A stretch of 64,000 bases of DNA from Vicinamibacterales bacterium (lineage in GTDB: Bacteria; Acidobacteriota; Vicinamibacteria; Vicinamibacterales; Fen-181): NCBI GenBank assembly GCA_036504215.1, contig DASXVO010000028.1, forward strand, positions 1-64,000, in the 5' to 3' direction. Each line of letters begins with the position of its first letter. Positions within the stretch are counted from its first letter, which is position 1. Both the position numbers and the translations under genes were made by a program. A model generated the notes under the pieces. The model saw only the letters and a list, made by a program, of their open reading frames with translations, searched no databases and was not told where the DNA came from. Shown in pieces: positions 672 to 24,391 of the stretch.

Positions 672-2912
672 ATGACTCCCTGGCAGCGCCGCCTTCGCGT
701 TGGACTTGGCCTCTTCGTCATCGCCTTCGCGGCGATCCTCTTCGTGTCGATCCGGAGACCGGTCGGGCCGGCGCATCCGGACAAGACACGCCGCAACGAT
801 CCGAAGGCGGTGACCGAGCAGATCAAGGGCACCATTCTCCTGGCCAAAGGGACGAGTCCCGACTACAAGCTCGATTTCGAGCGCCTCGTGCAGTACGCGG
901 ATGGCCGCAGCACGCTCCTCGGCGTGAAAGCGCGGGTCCCGCAGCGAGGCGGCCGTGACTTTCTCGTCACGGCGAAGGAAGGCGAGGTCGTCGGTGAGCA
1001 GCCCAAGGTCAATGTGAAGTTGCACGGTTCGGTCGAGTTGACGACGAGCGACGGACTCAAGCTGAACACCGAAGATGCGTCGTATCTCGATGCCGAGGGT
1101 GTGGTGCAGATGCCGGGGCCGGTCACCTTCTCGCGCAACCGCATGAGCGGGTCGGCGGTTGGGCTGTCATACGACAAGAACCGGGATACGTTGTGGCTAC
1201 TCGACAAGGCTGTCATCCAGATCGCGCCGGATGAGAACGGGAAGGACAGTGCGCATGTCGAGGCCGGCGCCGCCGGCCATGCGCGCAGGGACAAGTACAT
1301 CCGGTTCGAGCGCCACGTGAAGGTTGACCGCGACGGCCAGACGATCGAGGCGGAGGGCGCGGTGGCCTTCCTGACGCCCGACGAGAAGCGGATCCAGATG
1401 GTGGAACTCCGGGGAGCGTCGCGTGTCACGGGGAAGGGCGACACGAGTGGCGGGATGAAAGGAATGACGGCCCGCGACATGAATCTGACCTACGGGCCCG
1501 ATGGAAAGCAGTTGCAGCGGGCGCTGCTCAACGGCGACGGCGTCATCGAACTCGGTGGCGTCGCGGGTCGCGCTGGGCGCCGCCTCGCCGGGCAGTTCGT
1601 GGACGTGGCGCTTGGTCCGGACGGCACCACGGTGACCGGGTTGAGCGCGCGGGATCGGGTGCAACTCGACCTGCCTGCCGATGCAGGCACACCTGCGCGA
1701 CGCATTCGCGGAGGAGCCCTGCAGGCGGCCGGCCAGCCCGGCGTGGGCCTGACGCGGGCGGAGTTCAGCGAGGACGTGGATTTCCAGGAGTCGTCGGCAG
1801 CGCCAAAGGCCGGCACCCCGACCGTCGATCCGACACGGGTCGGGAGGGGTGTGTGTTTTCGGGAACCGGCGCCGCCCGCCGGCGTGCGCGTGGCCCGATC
1901 CGGGACGCTCGATCTGGCGCTCAAGAACGGCTTCACGACCATCGAGTCGGCGCGCTTCGGGAGGGGCGCGTGCTTCCAGGACTCGGCAATCGTCGGAACC
2001 GCGCGCGAGGCACGCTACGGCATGGCCGCCGGATCGCTCAACCTGTCCGGGGCCGACGAGAAGACCGGCCGGCCGCCTCAGGTCAGCGACGAACACGCGA
2101 CCATCGAGGCCAGCCGAATCGAGATCCTGCTCGATGCGAAGAAGATCACCGCCATCGACTCGGTCAAGAGCGACATGCGCGCCACGAAGCCGGCAACGCC
2201 GACAGCCGGTGCGGCACGCGCACAACCGGCCCCGCCTGGCGGCAACGCCCAGACGCACCTGCCGTCGATCCTCAAGGAGGATCAGCCGGTGTCGGCGACC
2301 GCCGACAGCTTGGTCTACGACAGCAGCGCGTCACATGCCGTGTACACCGGCCACGCGCAGCTGTGGCAGGGGGACGTGACGATCAAAGCCGATACGATCG
2401 TGCTCGACGACCAGAAGGGTGACCTGTCGGCCAGCGGCGCTGTCGTCTCGAAGATGCTCCTCGAACAGGTGAACGACAAGACCAAGGCCAAGGAGCGGGT
2501 GCACTCAGTGGCCACCGCGAAGGCCCTCGCCTACGACGACAAGTTGCGGCGCGCGACCTACACGGGTGCGGCCCACCTCACGGGTCCGCAGGGCGACCTC
2601 ACGGCCGACAGGATCGAACTGTTCCTGAAGGAGAGTGGAAACGAGGTCGATCGGCTCGAGGCGTATGTGAACGTCGCCATGCGGACCCCGGACAATCGGA
2701 AGGCGAGCGGCGCGAGACTGACGTACCTGTCCGCCGAGGAGCGGTACGACATGACCGGCCTGCCGGTGCGGATCGAGGAAGAATGTCGCGAAACTATTGG
2801 GAAATCTTTGACTTTCTTCAAATCGGCTGATAGGATCATCGTCGACGGCAACGAGGAGAGACGTACCGAAACCAAGGGCGGCGGAAAGTGCCCGGGGCCT
2901 CGCTTCGACTGA
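672..2912 (+). CDS. lptC: LptC-type protein extended with LptA/OstA-like repeats (LPS transport bridge)
   Basis: The protein has 746 residues, whereas ordinary LptC or LptA proteins have roughly 180-200. Residues about 8-27 form one N-terminal membrane segment without a clear signal-peptidase site, as in LptC. The next 150 residues resemble the LptC periplasmic beta-jellyroll (for example YKLDFERLVQYADGR). Later segments repeat the OstA/LptA pattern, such as SLVYDSSASHAVYTGHAQLWQGDVTIKADTIVLDD around residues 545-580 in two adjoining pieces, and a similar block near 620-660. The protein probably carries LPS across the periplasm as part of the Lpt bridge. It directly precedes lptB. The start ATG follows recJ by five bases. 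Family assignment is good; the exact number of jellyroll modules was judged by eye. Confidence 0.82.
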   Translation: MTPWQRRLRVGLGLFVIAFAAILFVSIRRPVGPAHPDKTRRNDPKAVTEQIKGTILLAKGTSPDYKLDFERLVQYADGRSTLLGVKARVPQRGGRDFLVTAKEGEVVGEQPKVNVKLHGSVELTTSDGLKLNTEDASYLDAEGVVQMPGPVTFSRNRMSGSAVGLSYDKNRDTLWLLDKAVIQIAPDENGKDSAHVEAGAAGHARRDKYIRFERHVKVDRDGQTIEAEGAVAFLTPDEKRIQMVELRGASRVTGKGDTSGGMKGMTARDMNLTYGPDGKQLQRALLNGDGVIELGGVAGRAGRRLAGQFVDVALGPDGTTVTGLSARDRVQLDLPADAGTPARRIRGGALQAAGQPGVGLTRAEFSEDVDFQESSAAPKAGTPTVDPTRVGRGVCFREPAPPAGVRVARSGTLDLALKNGFTTIESARFGRGACFQDSAIVGTAREARYGMAAGSLNLSGADEKTGRPPQVSDEHATIEASRIEILLDAKKITAIDSVKSDMRATKPATPTAGAARAQPAPPGGNAQTHLPSILKEDQPVSATADSLVYDSSASHAVYTGHAQLWQGDVTIKADTIVLDDQKGDLSASGAVVSKMLLEQVNDKTKAKERVHSVATAKALAYDDKLRRATYTGAAHLTGPQGDLTADRIELFLKESGNEVDRLEAYVNVAMRTPDNRKASGARLTYLSAEERYDMTGLPVRIEEECRETIGKSLTFFKSADRIIVDGNEERRTETKGGGKCPGPRFD
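2808..2836 (+). promoter_or_regulatory. Candidate internal sigma-70 promoter for lptB-rpoN
   Basis: TTGACT (2808-2813) and TAGGAT (2831-2836) are separated by exactly 17 bases. They lie in a short AT-rich patch at the 3' end of the LptC-like gene, whose surroundings are strongly GC-rich. The expected start would be about 70 bases before the lptB ATG. It would let lptB, rpoN and the downstream genes be transcribed independently of recJ. Confidence 0.45.
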
Positions 2913-3638
2913 ATGGCCACGCTGCGGACGCTCGAACTCACGAAGTCTTATGGCGGCCGCACAGTCGTCCGCGGCGTGAGCCTTGACGTTGCGTCCGGCG
3001 AGGTGGTCGGCCTGCTCGGCCCGAACGGCGCGGGCAAGACCACCACGTTCTACATGACCGTTGGACTCACGGCGCCCGACGCCGGGCGCGTGCTGCTCGA
3101 CGGCAAGGACGTCACGGACGACCCGATGTACCTGCGGGCGCGGAAGGGGATTGGGTACCTCCCGCAGGAACCTTCGATCTTCCGAGGCCTCACGGTCGAA
3201 CAGAACATACTCGCGATTCTCGAGACCTTGGCGCTCGACGGCGAGGCGCGCCGCGTCCGCCTCCGGGAACTGCTCGCCGAGTTGAACCTGACCCCGCTGG
3301 CAGGCGCGCCGGCCTATACGCTCTCCGGAGGGGAGCGGCGACGGGTCGAGATCACGCGCGCGCTCGTGATATCCCCGCTCTTCATCCTCCTCGACGAACC
3401 GTTCGCGGGGATTGACCCGATTGCGGTGGCGGATATCCAGAAGATCATCTTCCATCTGAAGGACCGGGGCATCGGAGTGTTGATCACCGACCACAACGTA
3501 CGCGAGACGCTGCGCATCACCGACCGGGCGTACATCGTGCACGACGGGGCTATCTTCCGCAGCGGGACCCCGGACAGCCTGGCCGGCGACGAAGACGTGC
3601 GGAGGATTTACCTCGGGACCGACTTCAGGTTGGACTAA
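2913..3638 (+). CDS. lptB: LPS export ABC transporter ATP-binding protein LptB
   Basis: A 241-residue ABC ATPase of normal LptB length. Walker A is [10 protein letters not shown] (near residue 36), the Q-loop region is [20 protein letters not shown], the signature is [11 protein letters not shown], Walker B is [12 protein letters not shown] and the switch histidine is in [10 protein letters not shown]. The PSIFR and FAGIDP motifs are typical of LptB. It should power LPS extraction from the inner membrane together with the LptFG fusion encoded at 22031-24391. The ATG immediately follows the stop of the LptC-like gene, which implies translational coupling. Confidence 0.96.
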
Positions 3639-11325: not shown

Positions 11326-12192
11326 TCAGGGCTGGCTGGTTCCGGGTACTCGACGCGTCAACTGCTCGAGTCGCTGCCGGGCCAGTCGCCCGGCGTCCGA
11401 GTTCGGGTAGTTCTTCACCACGAACTCCCAGCTTTCGCGGGCCCGCTCCGTCTGGCCGAGCGCGTTCAGCGCGAGCCCCCGCTTGTAGTACATGTCGGGG
11501 ATCCGCTTGCTGTTCGGATAGTCCGCGACGCCCCGGTCGTACGCCGACGCCGCCTCGCGGAACATGCCTTGCTGATAGTAGCTCTCCCCGATGTAGTACT
11601 GCGCGTCACCCGCCTGCTCGGATCGCGGGAAGGTTCGAATGTAGTTCTCGAATCCGGAGACGGCGAGATTGTACTGACCACCGGCGTAGTCCGCCCAGGC
11701 CATGTCGTAGAGCCGCTGCGGCGAGATGCCGGGGTTCACGGCCTGCGACGGCGGATTCTGCCCGGCAGGCGCCACCTGCCCGCCCGCAGGCGGCTGATCG
11801 CCGGCCGGCGTCACCGTCGGCGTGCCACCTCCACCGGGCATCGCCATCCGCAGCGCCTCGAGTTCCTGCGAGAGCGAGCTGATTCGGACGTTGTTGTCGT
11901 CCACCTTCTCGCGCACGACCCGCACGTCGGTCGAGATCGTGTCCACGAGCAGCTTCTGGTCGGCGAACGCCTTCCGCGTCGTGCCGTTCTGTTCGTCCAG
12001 CTTCGTGGCAATCGTCCGGAGCGCATCAGTGAGCGCCGCGAGCCGTACCTGCAGCAGTTGCGTCTGCTCCTGCAGCATCCGGATGTCCGCCATCATCTGC
12101 TGGTGTTCCTTGTTGGCCGCCAGCGCGGGAAAGGACATCGCCGGAATCAACAGCGCGCCGACGACAACGCGCAGCAAAACGTGTCGAGCCAT
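11326..12192 (-). CDS. ybgF: Tol-Pal system protein YbgF/CpoB
   Basis: 288 residues from the ATG at 12192, which begins a signal peptide (MARHVLLRVVVGALLIPAMS, cleaved near FPALA). Residues about 28-105 are a coiled coil (the trimerisation domain), followed by a Pro/Gln/Gly linker. Three TPR repeats then cover roughly 160-285 (AWADYAGGQYNLAVSGFENY, then AQYYIGESYYQQGMF). CpoB coordinates outer-membrane constriction with peptidoglycan synthesis at division. It is the last tol gene before ssb. A longer reading frame upstream overlaps pal and is not used. Confidence 0.93.
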   Translation of the reverse strand: MARHVLLRVVVGALLIPAMSFPALAANKEHQQMMADIRMLQEQTQLLQVRLAALTDALRTIATKLDEQNGTTRKAFADQKLLVDTISTDVRVVREKVDDNNVRISSLSQELEALRMAMPGGGGTPTVTPAGDQPPAGGQVAPAGQNPPSQAVNPGISPQRLYDMAWADYAGGQYNLAVSGFENYIRTFPRSEQAGDAQYYIGESYYQQGMFREAASAYDRGVADYPNSKRIPDMYYKRGLALNALGQTERARESWEFVVKNYPNSDAGRLARQRLEQLTRRVPGTSQP

Positions 12193-12212
12193 ACGTGTAA
12201 CCCTGATCCGCG

Positions 12213-12806
12213 CTATTTCTGCGTGATCACGAAATGATCCCGTCGGTTCTTCGCCCAGGCGTCTTCCGAGTGCCCGGGATCGAACGGGAACTCCTTGCCA
12301 TAACTCACCGTGCGCAGCCGGTCGGCGGCGATGCCGAGGGACACGAGATACGTCCGCGCCGCCACGGCGCGCCGTTCGCCGAGCGCAAGATTGTACTCCG
12401 CGGTTCCCCGCTCGTCGCAGTGGCCCTCGACCGTGACGATCCATGTCGGGTACTTCTTGAGCAGGTCCGCGTTGCCGTCGAGCCGCTTTTGGCCGTCAGA
12501 CGAGATCTCCGCGCTGTCGTACTCGAAGAAGACGGGCTTGAGCGGGGAGTCCTTGTTCAGATCGTCGAGCGACCGCGACGACATGCTCGCTTCCTTGATG
12601 GGCGAGGGCGCCACGACCGTTGGTTCCGTCACTGGTTCGGGCGGCGCCGGCGGCTTGACCGGGGACGCTGGCACGGCGGTGGCCGGCGGCGGGGGAGGCG
12701 GGACCGGACGGGCGACCGGCGGCACCTTCTTGTGGCACCCACCGGCGGCCAGCATCAGCACGGCCACGAGCACGAGCAAAGCGGGGACGCCCCATCGAGT
12801 TCGCAT
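12213..12806 (-). CDS. pal: Peptidoglycan-associated lipoprotein Pal
   Basis: 197 residues. A lipoprotein signal peptide ends at Cys24 (LAAGGC, a slightly unusual lipobox). A Pro-rich linker follows, then the OmpA-like peptidoglycan-binding domain (about 85-197) with VEGHCDERGTAEYNLALGERRA, the diaminopimelate-binding motif. Pal anchors the outer membrane to peptidoglycan and is released by TolB. It sits 15 bases after tolB. Confidence 0.96.
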   Translation of the reverse strand: MRTRWGVPALLVLVAVLMLAAGGCHKKVPPVARPVPPPPPPATAVPASPVKPPAPPEPVTEPTVVAPSPIKEASMSSRSLDDLNKDSPLKPVFFEYDSAEISSDGQKRLDGNADLLKKYPTWIVTVEGHCDERGTAEYNLALGERRAVAARTYLVSLGIAADRLRTVSYGKEFPFDPGHSEDAWAKNRRDHFVITQK

Positions 12807-12821
12807 GTTCTCTCCTCTAGA

Positions 12822-14195
12822 TTACTGCTTCGACCAGTCCGGCGTCTGGTTGTTTCCGACCTTCGTGACTTGCCTCAGGTCCTTGCCCGTGCGCTCGATC
12901 GTGTAGATCTGGCGCTTGCCTGCTCGGGTGGAGCTGAATGCCAGGTGTCGGCCGTTCGGAGCATAGGCCGGGCTCTCGTTGCTGCCCTCGCCGAAGGTCA
13001 ACTGGCGACGCTCGCCGCTGGCCAGGTCCAACACCTTGATGTCGTATCCCGGGCCGGTCCGCGAGGAATACGCAATCTCGTTGTAGGGTGCCGGCGACCA
13101 GGTGGGACGGTCGCAATACGATTCCGACGTCTTCCTCACCAGGTTCAGGCCGTCCACGCCAACCACGTAGATCTGCGGCGAACCGGAGCGGTCGGACGTG
13201 AAGGCGATCTGCGTGCCTGTCGGGGACCAGGTCGGCGTCACGTCGCTCGACGGGTGGTTCGTCAGCCGTCGCACGCCGGATCCGTCACGGTTCATGACGT
13301 AGATCTCGGGGTTGCCGTCGCGGGTCGACATGAACGCAATCCGAGTCCCGTCGGGCGACCAGACCGGCAGGAAGTTCTCTCCCTGCCCCTTGGTCGGGTT
13401 CTCGATCGTTCCCTGGTAGATTGACGACACGAAGATGTCGGGGCTCCCGCGCCGGTACGACGTGTACGCGAGCGCGCGGCTGTCGGGCGACCAGGCCGGA
13501 TTGATGTTCAGACTGCGATTCACGGTCACGCGCCGCTGGTTGGCTCCGTCGTAATCAGCGATGTAGATCTCCTTCACGCTGCGGGGCTCGACCGTGCCGC
13601 CGACGCGCTCACCGTCCCGATCCGACACGAACGCGAGCTTCGTGCGCGCCACGCCCCTCAGGCCAAGCTGCTCCTGGAATACTTCGTCCGCGATCGTGTG
13701 CGCGTAGAGCCGGGGGTTCGCAGCAGACCCCGTGTACTCGCGTCCGAACACGGACTGACGCTCGCGCACCTTGTACATCTTCGCCTCGACCCGGATGGCG
13801 TCGCCCACTTTCTGCACGGTACCGATGATCAGACCATCCGCGCCGAGTTCGCGCCACCGATCGAAGGGCACGTCGGTCAGCGAACGCGCCGCCGGAATCG
13901 TCCCGTAGGTGTCGCGCGGGATCATGTCGAACTCCCGCTCGAAGCTCAGGTCGTCCCAGAGCACCTGGCCCATCGTCTTCGCCGCCTCGACCGTCTCCGC
14001 GTCGGTCGTCAGCGCCACGAAGTCGGGCACCGCAAAGCGCGGGGGCGCCCCTGGCTCGCCGGTGATCTGCACCGCGATCTGGCCTTGCTGCGGCGGCACG
14101 GGATTCTGCGCGGGCGGCTGCTGGGGAACCGCCAGCACAACGGCCGCGCACCCGGCCACGAGGATGAAGAGCGTCGAGAGGTTCTTTCGCAGCAT
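12822..14195 (-). CDS. tolB: Tol-Pal system beta-propeller protein TolB
   Basis: 457 residues with an N-terminal signal peptide. An N-terminal TolB domain (about 40-190) is followed by WD40-like PD40 repeats: AWSPDSRALAYTSYRRG, VWSPDGTRIAFMSTRDG, TWSPTGTQIAFTSDRSG and AYAPNGRHLAFSSTRAG. This periplasmic propeller binds Pal. The ATG overlaps the tolA stop by one base (TGATG), so translation is coupled. Confidence 0.96.
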   Translation of the reverse strand: MLRKNLSTLFILVAGCAAVVLAVPQQPPAQNPVPPQQGQIAVQITGEPGAPPRFAVPDFVALTTDAETVEAAKTMGQVLWDDLSFEREFDMIPRDTYGTIPAARSLTDVPFDRWRELGADGLIIGTVQKVGDAIRVEAKMYKVRERQSVFGREYTGSAANPRLYAHTIADEVFQEQLGLRGVARTKLAFVSDRDGERVGGTVEPRSVKEIYIADYDGANQRRVTVNRSLNINPAWSPDSRALAYTSYRRGSPDIFVSSIYQGTIENPTKGQGENFLPVWSPDGTRIAFMSTRDGNPEIYVMNRDGSGVRRLTNHPSSDVTPTWSPTGTQIAFTSDRSGSPQIYVVGVDGLNLVRKTSESYCDRPTWSPAPYNEIAYSSRTGPGYDIKVLDLASGERRQLTFGEGSNESPAYAPNGRHLAFSSTRAGKRQIYTIERTGKDLRQVTKVGNNQTPDWSKQ

Positions 14196-15007
14196 CAGCG
14201 TCTGTATTTGAACGTCAAGTGAACCGTCAGGGCCGGCTCGGTGTACGCCGCCGGCAGCGGCGGCAGTTGACGCAGCAGTTGCAGCGCCCGCTGCGCCGTC
14301 AGGTCGAGCGCCAGTGAACCGCTCGACTGTTCCGCCTCGATCGACGTGATACGTCCGTCGCGCAAGATCGTGAACCGGATCACGGTGGTGCCCACCACCT
14401 GCTGCTGCGAGTTCCAGTTCTCGCCGACCCGCCGGACCATCGTCTGAATGTAGTCCGGGCAGCAGAAGTTGCCGATGTCGAACCCGCCGCCAGTGCCGCC
14501 GCCGCCCGTCGACAGGCCGATCCCAAGGCCCGCAACGCCCGTGTCCGCAAGGCTCGAGCCGAACTTCTCCTGCGGGCCGGTGACCGGAATCCTTCCTCGC
14601 GCCCCCTCCGGCGCCGTCTTGATCTCCGGCTGCGGCTTCTCTGGCGCCTTGGTCGCCACGGCCTTCGTCTTCACCTTCGGCGACGGCACGGGCAGCGTCA
14701 TCTCCGGCGTCTTCGCCGCAGGCGGGCGCACCGCCTGCGGCCGCGACGGCGGCTCGGACACCGCCGCCTGCACCGGGCGGCCGCCCATCGGATTCGCGCC
14801 GCCGTTCATCGGCCCCATACCGCTGCCCAGGCTGATCGACATCACGACGGCCGGCGTATGCTGCTGCACACGCCCCAGCCAGTGCCCGGGGCCGAACAGC
14901 AGCATCGCGATGATCCCACCGTGCAGCACGAGCGAGAACCCGACCATCCGCGAGAGGCCCCGCGGGTCGTGTTCGCGATCGAGCAGGACGGCGGTCACCG
15001 GTTCCAT
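14195..15007 (-). CDS. tolA: TolA/TonB-family energy-transducing protein
   Basis: 270 residues. One membrane segment near residues 21-39 is preceded by a short cytoplasmic end. A Pro/Lys/Ala/Gly-rich periplasmic stretch follows, and a TonB-type C-terminal domain covers about 185-270 (VVGTTVIRFTILRDGRITSIEAEQ is typical, quoted here over two adjoining pieces). Position between tolR and tolB assigns the TolA role: transmitting proton-motive force to the outer membrane. The family match alone would not separate TolA from TonB. Confidence 0.88.
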   Translation of the reverse strand: MEPVTAVLLDREHDPRGLSRMVGFSLVLHGGIIAMLLFGPGHWLGRVQQHTPAVVMSISLGSGMGPMNGGANPMGGRPVQAAVSEPPSRPQAVRPPAAKTPEMTLPVPSPKVKTKAVATKAPEKPQPEIKTAPEGARGRIPVTGPQEKFGSSLADTGVAGLGIGLSTGGGGTGGGFDIGNFCCPDYIQTMVRRVGENWNSQQQVVGTTVIRFTILRDGRITSIEAEQSSGSLALDLTAQRALQLLRQLPPLPAAYTEPALTVHLTFKYRR

Positions 15008-15017
15008 CGCACGTGCC

Positions 15018-15479
15018 CTACCTTTGATCCGGCCACTTCGCCACGATGCCGACCTTCTCGACGCCGCCTTCCTTCAGCTTGTCCATCACGCTGATCAAGT
15101 CCTGCACGCTCAATCCGGCATCGCTCTGCAGGAAGACCTGATGGTCGGCCTTCCCAACCATCGCCTGGCGGATTCGCTCCTGCAGGATCTCGAGGCGCAC
15201 CGGCTCGTCGCCCAGATGCACGAGGTGATCGTTCCGGAAGGAGAGGGGCACGCTCACGAATATCCGTTGGTCGTTGATCTCCTGTGCACGCCGCGCCGAG
15301 GGAAGGTTCACGTCGAGGCCGCGCTGGAGCATCGGGGCCGTCACCATGAAGATGATCAGCAGCACCAGCATCACGTCCACCAGCGGGACGACGTTGATCT
15401 CGTTCAGTGAGGACACGACCCGCCGCGTCCGTGCCCGCCCGCTGCCGGCGCCGGTCTCGATCGCTTGAACCTTCGGCAT
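15018..15479 (-). CDS. tolR: TolR/ExbD biopolymer transport protein
   Basis: 153 residues. A single membrane helix (about 27-47) contains VVPLVDVMLVLLIIFMVTAP, where the aspartate is the conserved proton-path residue of ExbD/TolR. The periplasmic domain follows. It works with TolQ as the proton-driven motor. It is four bases after tolQ. Confidence 0.96.
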   Translation of the reverse strand: MPKVQAIETGAGSGRARTRRVVSSLNEINVVPLVDVMLVLLIIFMVTAPMLQRGLDVNLPSARRAQEINDQRIFVSVPLSFRNDHLVHLGDEPVRLEILQERIRQAMVGKADHQVFLQSDAGLSVQDLISVMDKLKEGGVEKVGIVAKWPDQR

Positions 15480-15483
15480 CGTC

Positions 15484-16257
15484 CTACGTGAAATTCCGCT
15501 CGGCGATGTTCAGGAACTCGAGCGCGAAGTCGTCCATCTGCGTCGCGAACAGCTTCACGCGGTGCGCGAGGTGATTGTAGAAATAGACGGCGGGAATCGC
15601 GGCGAACAACCCCGCAGCCGTCGCGATCAGCGCTTCGGCAATTCCGGGCGCCACGACCGCGAGGCTCGTCGACGCCGTCTGGCCGATGCTGTCGAACGCG
15701 GAGATGATGCCCCACACCGTGCCGAACAAGCCGATGAACGGCGTGATGCTGGCCGTCGTGGCGAGGAACGGCACCCGGCTCTCGAGCTTGTTGATCTCCA
15801 CGCTCGATGCGCGAAGGAGCGCCCGATCGAGCGCCACGATGCTCTTCAGCGTTGGGCGCGCCGGCGCGCTCCCAGGGGCGAGCGTCTGAGCCGTCACCGA
15901 CACCGAGGGCGGCTGGCGAAGCTGGCTGTTCAACTCCGCGTACCCTGACTGGAAGAGGCCCACGAGCGGACTGTCGCCGAGCGTCTTGCAGACCGCATGC
16001 ACCTCGGAGAACTTGCTGCTCTTGCGGAAGACGTCGAGGAACGTGCCGGACTGGCGCTCGGAGCGCCGGAACGACCACAGCTTGAAGAGGATGATGCCCC
16101 AGGAGGCGATCGAAAAGAGGATCAGGATCAGGAGGACGCCCTGAGCGATCGGACTGGAGCGGGCAACCAGACGGAACACATTCCCGCCCAGGCCGCCCTC
16201 GGGCGCGGCAGCGCCTTGCACCTGGAGTGCAAGCGCCAGGTATCCAAGCGTGCGCAA
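15484..16257 (-). CDS. tolQ: TolQ/MotA/ExbB proton channel protein
   Basis: 257 residues. A first helix lies at about 38-60, and two C-terminal helices carry ITPFIGLFGTVWGIISAF and the conserved PGIAEALIATAAGLFAAIPA. TolQ and TolR form the motor of the Tol-Pal system. The start is TTG at 16257, supported by GGAGG five bases upstream and by the absence of an in-frame ATG or GTG upstream. It is the first gene of the operon. Confidence 0.95.
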   Translation of the reverse strand: MRTLGYLALALQVQGAAAPEGGLGGNVFRLVARSSPIAQGVLLILILFSIASWGIILFKLWSFRRSERQSGTFLDVFRKSSKFSEVHAVCKTLGDSPLVGLFQSGYAELNSQLRQPPSVSVTAQTLAPGSAPARPTLKSIVALDRALLRASSVEINKLESRVPFLATTASITPFIGLFGTVWGIISAFDSIGQTASTSLAVVAPGIAEALIATAAGLFAAIPAVYFYNHLAHRVKLFATQMDDFALEFLNIAERNFT

Positions 16258-21768: not shown

Positions 21769-21791
21769 CGAGCTGCGCCAGACGGAGCAGC
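21748..21791 (+). repeat. 22-bp tandem duplication across the parB stop codon
   Basis: Copy 1 (21748-21769) contains the parB stop TAG. Copy 2 (21770-21791) follows with no gap and differs at two bases, one of which turns the TAG into CAG. It seems to be a recent local duplication. Confidence 0.85.
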
Positions 21792-21835
21792 GGATGGAGT
21801 CCATCGGCCCCAGACCGAAGCGTCTCGTGGCCTCC

Positions 21836-21890
21836 TTGGTATCGCAAGTTAACATAACATACATTATCAGACACGATTTAAAACACGCCC
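21836..21890 (+). promoter_or_regulatory. AT-rich island upstream of the lptF-lptG fusion
   Basis: About 55 bases (GTTAACATAACATACATTAT and an adjoining TTTAAAA) are very AT-rich in a GC-rich spacer of 262 bases between parB and the permease gene. TTGGTA (21836-21841) is 17 bases from ATACAT (21859-21864). This is probably the promoter region for the permease, but the exact elements are uncertain. Confidence 0.4.
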
Positions 21891-22030
21891 AGATTGCCCC
21901 TGTGCATATCTTGCGGATCCTTCACCCTCACCGTCCGCCCCAATCCTCACCTGATTCCAGCCCCGCCCGCCGCCATCCATAACGCGCCGGCGCCCGTGCC
22001 CGGCGACTGTGTTATCGTGTTCCCGCGCTC

Positions 22031-24391
22031 ATGTTCCGGATCATCGACCGCTACGTCGTCCGCGAAATCCTGCCGCCCACGCTCCTGGCGCTCCTCGTCT
22101 TCACCTTCATGCTGATGATGGGGCCCATCGACCGCGTCGCCCAGGCCCTCCTCGCCAAGGGCGTCGCCGTCCCCGTCATCGGCCGCATGCTCCTGCTGCT
22201 GGTCCCGCAGGCCCTCGCCGTCACCATCCCGATGGCGTTCCTCCTGGGACTCCTCGTCGCATTCGGCCGTCTGTCCGGCGACAGCGAATGGACCGCCATG
22301 CAGGCGTGCGGCGTGAACCTCGCAAAGCTGCTCCAGCCCGTCCTGGCACTCGGGCTGGTCTGCTGGGCGGCCACGCAGTGGGTCCTCGTCGTGGCGGTTC
22401 CCTGGTGCAACCAATCGTTCCGCGAGCTGGAATACGGAGTCGTCGCCGCCCGCGTGGAAAGCGAAATCAAGCCGCGTGTCTTCTTCGAGGACTTCCCCGG
22501 CCTGGTCCTGTACGCCCGCGACGTCGCACAGGGGGTCCCTGGTTGGATCGATGTGTTCGTTGCCGAAACCGGTCAGCCTGGGCCGCCCGTCGTCTCGGTC
22601 GCCCGCCATGGCCGGATGCTCATCGACCGCGAGCATCGGAAGATCGAAATGGTGCTGGAGGATGGCATCAGTCACAAGCTCGGCACCGATGCGACCGGCC
22701 AGGACCGTTACGACGCCAACAGCTTCCAGAGCCTCATCCGGGACCTGGACCCCAAGCAGGTGTTCCCTCAGGACCGCCCGCAGAAGGGCGAGGCCGAGAT
22801 GACCGTCGCGGAACTGCGCAAGATGGCGGCAGAACTTCGTCGCGAGGGACGCCCGGCCGATCGGCCCGAGATCTACATCCACCAGAAATTCTCGATTCCA
22901 GTTGCCTGCCTGGTGTTCGCCTTCATGGGCCTCGGTCTCGGCGTGAGCACGAGCCGCGGTGGCAAGCTGGCGGCGTTCGCCCTCGGAACGGGAGTGATCT
23001 TCGCCTACTACGTGGTGATGTATGCGGGGCGTGCAATGTCCATCGGCGGATTGATGCCGGGCTGGCTTGCCGCATGGCTGCCCAACATCGTGCTCGGCCC
23101 CCTGGCCCTTCTCATCGTCGTCGGGCGCACCCGCTCCTCCGGGCGAGGCCTGCGGTTCTCCCTCCCGTCTGCCGCGCGCCCCAACGACGAGAACGACCGC
23201 CCGGCGGTTGCTCACTCCCCTGCGGGCCAGGCGGCGGCGCGGGTCATCCTCGTCGTGAAGGTGCCTCAGCTGGGCCTGCCGCGCCCCGGCATTCTCGATC
23301 GCTACCTCTCGAAGATGTATCTCCGCGTCCAGGCGCTGACGTTCGTCAGCCTGCTCGGGATCTTCTACATCTCGACGTTCATCGACCTGTCCGACAAGCT
23401 GTTCAAGGGCAAGACCACGGCGGACGTGATGCTGCGGTACTTCTATTTCCAGACGCCGCAGTTCATCTACTACGTCCTGCCCATTTCGGTCCTTCTCGCC
23501 AGTCTGGTCACCATTGGCGCGATCACCAGGAGCAGCGAGCTGGTGGTCATGAAGGCCTGCGGGATCAGTCTCTATCGCATCGCGGTGCCGCTCCTGGCGT
23601 TTGGCGCGGCCGCGAGCGTGCTGCTGTTTGCGCTCGAGGAGCATCTGCTCGCCCACTCGAATCGCCAGGCGCAGGAACTCGAGCACCTGATTCGCATCGG
23701 CACCGTGCGAAGTTCGGGGATGCTGAACCGTCGATGGGTCGTCGGGCGCAACGGCGAGATCTACCACTACCTGTTCTTCGACGCGCGCCGGGCCGAGCTC
23801 CGCGAGTTGTCCAAGTTCGAATTCGACCGAAAGACCTGGCGGCTGTCTCGCGTCACCTACGTCAGCGCAGCCCGATTCGTGCCCTCGTCTGCGGTGGCGG
23901 ACGGGAGCGTCGGGACCTGGATCGCCGACCGCGGTTCAGTCCGGGAGCTCGATGCCCGCGGCGACCCCCGGACGTTCTCAGCTTTCACGCACCGCTCGCT
24001 GACGATGGAGCCGCCCGACTACTTCGGGACCGAGCAGCCGGAGGCGGACAGGATGACCTACGGTGAGCTGAGGCAGTACATCGAGGAGATGCGGTCGGCC
24101 GGCCTCAATGTCGTTCAACCGCTCGTCGGCCTCCACCGGAAACTGTCCTTTCCCTTCGTCACCATCATCATGACGCTGCTGGCGGTCCCCTTTGCCGTGA
24201 CGACTGGCCGGCGCGGCGCCCTCTACGGCGTGGGCGTCGGCATCGTGCTGGCTCTCGTGTATTGGACCGCCAACAACATGTTCGGCGTCGTCGGAGTCGC
24301 GGGGATGATCTCGCCCGCCCTGGCCGCGTGGGCTCCAAATCTGCTGTTCGGCGCGAGCGCCGCCTACCTGCTGCTGACTGTCAGAACATAG
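22031..24391 (+). CDS. lptFG: LptF-LptG fused LPS export permease
   Basis: 786 residues, about twice the length of one LptF or LptG. The first half (1 to about 375) is a YjgP/YjgQ permease: an N-terminal helix after MFRIIDRYVVREILPPTLLA, further helices, a periplasmic jellyroll, then C-terminal helices (VACLVFAFMGLGLGVSTSRG). After a linker, the second half restarts with ILDRYLSKMYLRVQALTFVS and repeats the layout to the end. LptF and LptG normally form a heterodimer that extracts LPS with LptB. Here both are in one chain. I see no frameshift that would explain the fusion. Confidence 0.93.
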   Translation: MFRIIDRYVVREILPPTLLALLVFTFMLMMGPIDRVAQALLAKGVAVPVIGRMLLLLVPQALAVTIPMAFLLGLLVAFGRLSGDSEWTAMQACGVNLAKLLQPVLALGLVCWAATQWVLVVAVPWCNQSFRELEYGVVAARVESEIKPRVFFEDFPGLVLYARDVAQGVPGWIDVFVAETGQPGPPVVSVARHGRMLIDREHRKIEMVLEDGISHKLGTDATGQDRYDANSFQSLIRDLDPKQVFPQDRPQKGEAEMTVAELRKMAAELRREGRPADRPEIYIHQKFSIPVACLVFAFMGLGLGVSTSRGGKLAAFALGTGVIFAYYVVMYAGRAMSIGGLMPGWLAAWLPNIVLGPLALLIVVGRTRSSGRGLRFSLPSAARPNDENDRPAVAHSPAGQAAARVILVVKVPQLGLPRPGILDRYLSKMYLRVQALTFVSLLGIFYISTFIDLSDKLFKGKTTADVMLRYFYFQTPQFIYYVLPISVLLASLVTIGAITRSSELVVMKACGISLYRIAVPLLAFGAAASVLLFALEEHLLAHSNRQAQELEHLIRIGTVRSSGMLNRRWVVGRNGEIYHYLFFDARRAELRELSKFEFDRKTWRLSRVTYVSAARFVPSSAVADGSVGTWIADRGSVRELDARGDPRTFSAFTHRSLTMEPPDYFGTEQPEADRMTYGELRQYIEEMRSAGLNVVQPLVGLHRKLSFPFVTIIMTLLAVPFAVTTGRRGALYGVGVGIVLALVYWTANNMFGVVGVAGMISPALAAWAPNLLFGASAAYLLLTVRT

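Follow-up and report, generated by a model that had tools for sequence, protein, structure and literature searches.

The locus examined here raises the question of whether LptF and LptG, the two permease subunits of the lipopolysaccharide extractor, are made as a single polypeptide in a Vicinamibacterales bacterium, whether such an arrangement belongs to one genome or to a larger group, and what the joined protein would do. The window, by which we mean the whole 64,000-nucleotide stretch of DNA that was analyzed, contains one uninterrupted open reading frame of 786 codons in which the Pfam family PF03739 (LptF_LptG) is matched twice, with a summed score of 506.4 bits, bearing out the original prediction that both subunits are read in one frame without an internal stop. 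Across the whole 5.9 Mb genome, the only PF03739 matches are these two (265.9 and 242.6 bits), both lying within one 802-codon stop-to-stop frame, and the search of the whole genome with this family found no second LptF/LptG copy outside positions 22031-24391. As argued below, LptF and LptG encoded in one frame represent a real rearrangement of long standing, stably kept, within a machine that is already known; no new machine is involved. The gene very probably encodes a single-chain LptFG of the LptB2FG lipopolysaccharide extractor that arose by the joining of adjacent lptF and lptG genes, and the resulting complex is most likely an LptB2FG extractor of the usual type whose membrane part consists of a single chain. 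The features of the fused gene and of its presumed partners are collected in Table 1.

Table 1. Positions in the window of the lptFG fusion gene, its parts and the presumed partner genes.
Feature	Position	Strand	Details and basis
LptC-LptA fusion gene, presumed partner	672..2912	+	746 codons; Pfam LptC at 16-179; two LptA/LptD_N stretches (Pfam)
lptB-like ATPase gene, presumed partner	2913..3638	+	directly after the LptC-A stop; ABC_tran 119.3 bits
lptFG fusion gene	22031..24391	+	786 codons, ATG to TAG, no internal stops; PF03739 matched twice
LptF-like half, residues 1-370	22031..23140	+	membrane helices and periplasmic beta domain; PF03739 at 7-361; TIGR04407 at 4-362; model 3-372 vs 5x5y_F
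Linker, about residues 371-418, presumably cytoplasmic	23141..23284	+	
LptG-like half, residues 419-786	23285..24388	+	TIGR04408 at 421-783; model 418-785 vs 6mjp_G
Glu86 codon	22286..22288	+	aligned with E. coli LptF Glu84 (coupling helix contacting LptB)
Glu503 codon	23537..23539	+	aligned with E. coli LptG Glu88 (coupling helix)

The AlphaFold2 model of the fused protein (pLDDT 89.0, pTM 0.84) is composed of two helical membrane domains, each bearing a beta domain, and corresponds to the LptF/LptG fold occurring twice. When the two modeled halves were compared with solved structures, the N-terminal half matched 5x5y_F (Z 25.9, rmsd 8.1, 343 residues aligned) and the C-terminal half matched 6mjp_G (Z 28.0, rmsd 4.0, 352 residues aligned). 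Some solved chains prefer the opposite half, with 6s8g_F best matching residues 421-786 and 7efo_G residues 4-368, so the fold has no power to distinguish F from G and was not used for that purpose. Between the halves lies the linker, which is modeled with a pLDDT of 47-71 per ten residues, is variable and rich in Pro, Ala and Arg, and has a mean column identity of 0.37-0.41 compared with 0.64 in either half. It carries a net positive charge in 69 of 72 fused proteins. Its length by alignment ranges from 14 to 74 residues across the proteins measured and is 41 residues here (about 48 when counted as residues 371-418); these lengths exclude three loci in which the wrong half was matched, and one further locus, without a start codon under the rule used, was left out. 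Its variability and positive charge are what one would expect if the linker serves as a cytoplasmic tether and not as a working part of the transporter. Upstream of the fused gene, a gap of approximately 260 bases (positions 21769-22030) separates it from a parB-like gene and includes an AT-rich patch at about 21845-21885 in GC-rich surroundings.

A variable linker of low model confidence would also suit a continuous frame that yields two proteins, either through re-initiation of LptG translation within the linker or through cleavage of the linker by a protease. In keeping with re-initiation, an in-frame ATG, GTG or TTG occurs in the linker region of 64 of the 72 fused genes, and in 12 of these 64 a purine-rich stretch lies upstream of such a codon. 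However, start codons are less frequent among linker codons than in the body of the gene (5.2% versus 7.7%), while upstream purine-rich stretches are about equally frequent in both (5.9% and 5.3%, respectively), a comparison of internal starts that is itself weak, since a purine-rich, ribosome-binding-like stretch precedes only 8 of the 72 presumed real starts, which were of our own choosing. Moreover, the open frame persists in diverged lineages, where two separate products would have no need of it. We therefore regard two proteins from one frame as unlikely, and the single chain is presumably left uncleaved.

If the product is a one-chain LptFG, each half should engage an LptB subunit, and the residues that align with those of the E. 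coli coupling helices are consistent with this expectation. Among the 29 fused proteins aligned, 28 have glutamate at the position of Glu86 and 28 at that of Glu503, and Gly94 and Gly511, also in the coupling helices, are invariant in the 29; in E. coli, the corresponding glutamates, E84 of LptF and E88 of LptG, are described in passages of PMC5082905 as required for assembly and coupling with LptB. The lptB-like gene is found approximately 18 kb upstream of lptFG, in the same window as the LptC-bearing gene, and its translation has a phenylalanine at position 90 and an arginine at position 91, the numbers that LptB groove residues of E. coli carry in the same source (PMC5082905, in part). LptD is matched in a 777-codon frame on a different contig of the genome. 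A genome-wide LptD_N search found no separate LptA, its only further match being a weak one in a receptor-like protein. In 22 of 30 genomes, among them that of the window, matches to LptC and to LptA/LptD_N lie in a common frame. This count omits one genome in which both families match one and the same stretch, and in the other seven the frame lacks a match to one or the other family. The LptC-A fusion is thus also widely shared in the order, and the original expectation that this genome uses fewer, longer Lpt chains holds for both joined pairs. In the mechanism that we propose, the chain would run from LptF through the cytoplasmic linker to LptG, each of the two coupling helices, one per half, would be the binding site of one LptB subunit, and the complex would pull lipopolysaccharide from the inner membrane and deliver it by way of the LptC-A fusion protein to LptD, much as in E. 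coli LptB2FGC.

The residues presumed to contact the lipid fit this picture less closely. Lys34 of LptG, located at the lateral gate and described as highly conserved in passages of PMC5548808, is matched by lysine in none of the 29 fused proteins, which instead hold Thr, Glu, Ala, Ile or Leu at this column (residue 449 here), where the alignment of the helix is loose; in addition, LptG R136 aligns to Glu551 of the window's protein. These mismatches imply either that the lipid contacts differ or that the alignment is off at these positions, and the absence of Lys34 was not treated as defining the family. The unconserved lysine may nonetheless be read as a sign that some lipid different from lipopolysaccharide is the cargo of the fused permease. 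In Borrelia, LptFG-like permeases would belong to a transport route as well. A transport system that links the two membranes has been proposed for that genus, which is without lipopolysaccharide, in the portion of PMC10353723 that treats it. Yet the genome studied here has matches to LptB, LptC-A and LptD, which together make up a route to the outer leaflet, and a different cargo therefore appears quite improbable; export of lipopolysaccharide is the function that we would assign to the single-chain LptFG.

The identity of the two halves was examined by scoring each of them separately. By NCBIfam profiles, the N-terminal half is LptF-like (207.6 bits for LptF versus 128.9 for LptG) and the C-terminal half is LptG-like (224.7 bits for LptG versus 144.5 for LptF). 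Taken singly, both halves score below the NCBI equivalog cut-offs (230 for TIGR04407, LptF, which is still the best family for the N-terminal half, and 240 for TIGR04408, LptG), so the assignment was made to rest on a tree as well; the undivided protein scores above both cut-offs (342.2 bits for TIGR04407 and 332.4 for TIGR04408), probably because each of these scores sums both halves. In the tree, all 17 N-terminal halves group with five of six LptF sequences (support 96/95), the sixth, from Fusobacterium, being placed basally on the LptG side of this branch. The 17 C-terminal halves form one clade (98/95), which groups with all seven LptG sequences and one unassigned Prevotella row (100/99). 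The N-terminal halves are not resolved as a clade relative to proteobacterial LptF, and a single origin is accordingly not proved for this half; several rows were flagged as long-branched or of unusual composition, and the branching among N-terminal halves and proteobacterial LptF was for this reason not relied on. Duplication within one gene, giving an LptF-LptF or LptG-LptG protein, would explain why both halves belong to the same Pfam family and why their folds are similar enough for some solved chains to match the opposite half, but it is disfavored both by the NCBIfam profiles, which assign the halves differently, and by the tree, which parts them into LptF and LptG groups, and we consider it very improbable. 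The same placement of N-terminal halves with LptF and C-terminal halves with LptG indicates that two pre-existing genes were joined, probably once.

The arrangement of lptF and lptG outside the phylum offers a simple starting point for such a joining. Eight outgroup stretches were compared, one from E. coli and seven fetched from a plasmid collection (55 records matched, 40 of them listed), and in six of the eight the two genes are separate neighbors in the same order as in the fusion. The overlap between them is 1 base in E. coli and 4 bases in each of Legionella adelaidensis, Sinorhizobium meliloti and Diaphorobacter, and their frames are adjacent in Aeromonas and Fusobacterium; the Azospirillum and Prevotella stretches contain a single gene and no pair. 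A further 14 control genomes were scored for the presence of a match only, not for its architecture. Where the genes overlap, a minor change of frame suffices to join them. The N- and C-termini of LptF and LptG chains are both cytoplasmic. With this topology, and with the six membrane helices per chain described in passages of PMC5548808, the join requires no added membrane crossing. Between the two halves, pairwise identity values correlate at 0.95 (406 pairs across the phylum) and 0.84 (2,556 pairs nearer the window), which fits descent as one unit, even if shared ancestry alone would also yield a high value. Adjacent lptF and lptG genes would have been joined, most likely once, before the sampled Acidobacteriota lineages split, and the fusion would have been retained since.

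To define how widely the fusion occurs, a phylum sample of 197 distinct genomes was assembled from 60 genomes (that of the window plus relatives) and 149 from Acidobacteriota, with 12 in common. By PF03739 search, 184 of the 197 have a fused gene or a frame long enough for both halves. In 181 of them, a match lies in an open frame of at least 679 codons, although in some of these only one match is listed and the length of the frame stands in for the second; in the other three, parts of both halves share one frame that reaches the contig end. The 46 genomes without a listed match in the first phylum-wide search were searched again, and frames shorter than 675 codons were inspected one by one. 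The remaining 13 genomes are not judgeable: eight have one half per frame, reaching the contig end, four have no PF03739 match, and in one the sole match is a small single-domain paralogue. An intact, separate lptF-lptG pair replacing the fusion was seen in none of the 197 genomes. In one relative, part of the second half is found in a different frame near a contig end.

The fusion is maintained at great sequence distance, with identities to the window's protein of just 21-30% in 17 of 28 rows compared, and such retention of the frame across the phylum excludes chance. It extends to family f37, whose proteins share 22-24% identity with that of the window (four proteins aligned); weak best matches had suggested split or degraded genes in this family, a reading rejected after a closer search, which found single frames of 739-815 codons in 11 of 11 genomes. 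The LptF-LptG fusion is therefore a trait of the phylum and not of one genome, as the original prediction had left to be confirmed in relatives. An independent collection of named assemblies gave the same result: every one of the best 80 among 146 confirmed loci holds the two halves in a single frame, and 71 of the 80 are closed at both ends, with linkers of 14-54 residues (median 40.5). That an assembly or sequencing error deleted a stop/start pair and so merged two normal genes deserves virtually no credence, since no support for it was found, the break in the one relative mentioned above is of the opposite kind, and it is refuted by these independent assemblies together with the 181 genomes recognized by frame length.

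Several individual records deserve separate mention. Of the 80 kept records, 75 have titles that refer to Acidobacteria, Vicinamibacteria or members of these, and five have titles naming other groups. These five (L134, L138, L150, L163 and L173) are titled Acidimicrobiia (three records), Cyanobacteria and Bifidobacterium breve, carry an LptFG of the acidobacterial type with 47-50% identity to the window's protein, and are probably mislabelled metagenome bins. The small single-domain paralogue (L098, 1705-2943, minus strand) matches only the last third of the PF03739 family and apparently has no periplasmic domain. Two genomes contain an unfused frame besides the fused copy: an LptG-like frame of 362 codons in G071 (L104, 3333-4418, minus strand) and an LptF-like frame of 495 codons in G179 (L106, 210-1694, minus strand). 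Both score highest against acidobacterial halves among those compared, and so they are second-copy paralogues or foreign contigs in the assembly. Another genome has two fused copies, in frames of 783 and 781 codons on separate contigs, representing a duplication or a mixed bin.

The closest known system is LptB2FG(C) of E. coli, Klebsiella, Vibrio and Acinetobacter, a type VI ABC transporter with which the fused protein shares the fold of its halves, the F-then-G order, the coupling-helix glutamates and a beta domain in each half, and which is likewise accompanied by lptB and LptC-bearing genes. The arrangement found here differs in that LptF and LptG form one chain instead of two, that LptG Lys34 is absent, and that LptC and LptA are joined. 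In the classification given in the relevant part of PMC8386196, type VI appears only as a "6 + 6 Heterodimer", while type V may be a homodimer, a heterodimer or a "Single chain". The further claim of the original prediction, that a fixed pairing leaves the transporter unable to vary its subunit composition, carries little weight, since the solved LptB2FG complexes described in passages of PMC8386196 and PMC5548808 are already LptF-LptG heterodimers, so that fusion takes away little freedom. The join mainly fixes production at a 1:1 ratio and keeps the halves in proximity. One permease gene per transporter is likewise found in Negativicutes and Halanaerobiales, which have a lone LptF/G homologue according to the pertinent section of PMC5007114; there, identical chains are presumably paired, whereas here two different halves are joined.

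Within Acidobacteriota, the passages of PMC8787282 on LptF/LptG in one acidobacterium make no mention of a fusion, and the gene concerned, which is from the same phylum, is probably the same. In PMC8871954, a paper on how outer membranes originated, section 3.4 describes Acidobacteria as "apparently lacking" lptF and lptG. The present results bear on this printed claim, and the fusion may account for the absence recorded in that census; if so, the acidobacterial gap in lptF and lptG is explained for a study that asks if an outer membrane was already present in the ancestor of bacteria. In the literature searched (titles, abstract openings and passages, with most subscription journals outside its range), no description of an LptF-LptG fusion was recognized. 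Gene fusion is an ordinary event, and what makes this one moderately interesting is its fixity throughout the phylum in combination with that lack of a description. Two-domain proteins of the LptF-LptG kind are visible in public databases.

In practical terms, the fusion provides a clean and easily read marker for nearly all sampled Acidobacteriota, and a natural one-chain LptFG of fixed stoichiometry would be useful where the halves need to be kept together or mutated separately. Together with LptC-A, it hints at an Lpt machine that tolerates covalent joins at two sites. A more far-reaching interpretation, put forward tentatively and falling somewhat short of what we would call probable, is that of a condensed Lpt machine throughout the phylum, in which LptFG is one chain and LptC is joined to LptA; this arrangement would be ancestral and obligatory, would fix the side of the permease that faces LptC, would amount to a naturally occurring type VI ABC transporter made of a single chain, and would explain the census absence. 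Elsewhere in the window, on the minus strand at 11326-16257, lies a group of genes that by eye resemble those for TolQ, TolR, TolA, TolB, Pal and YbgF.
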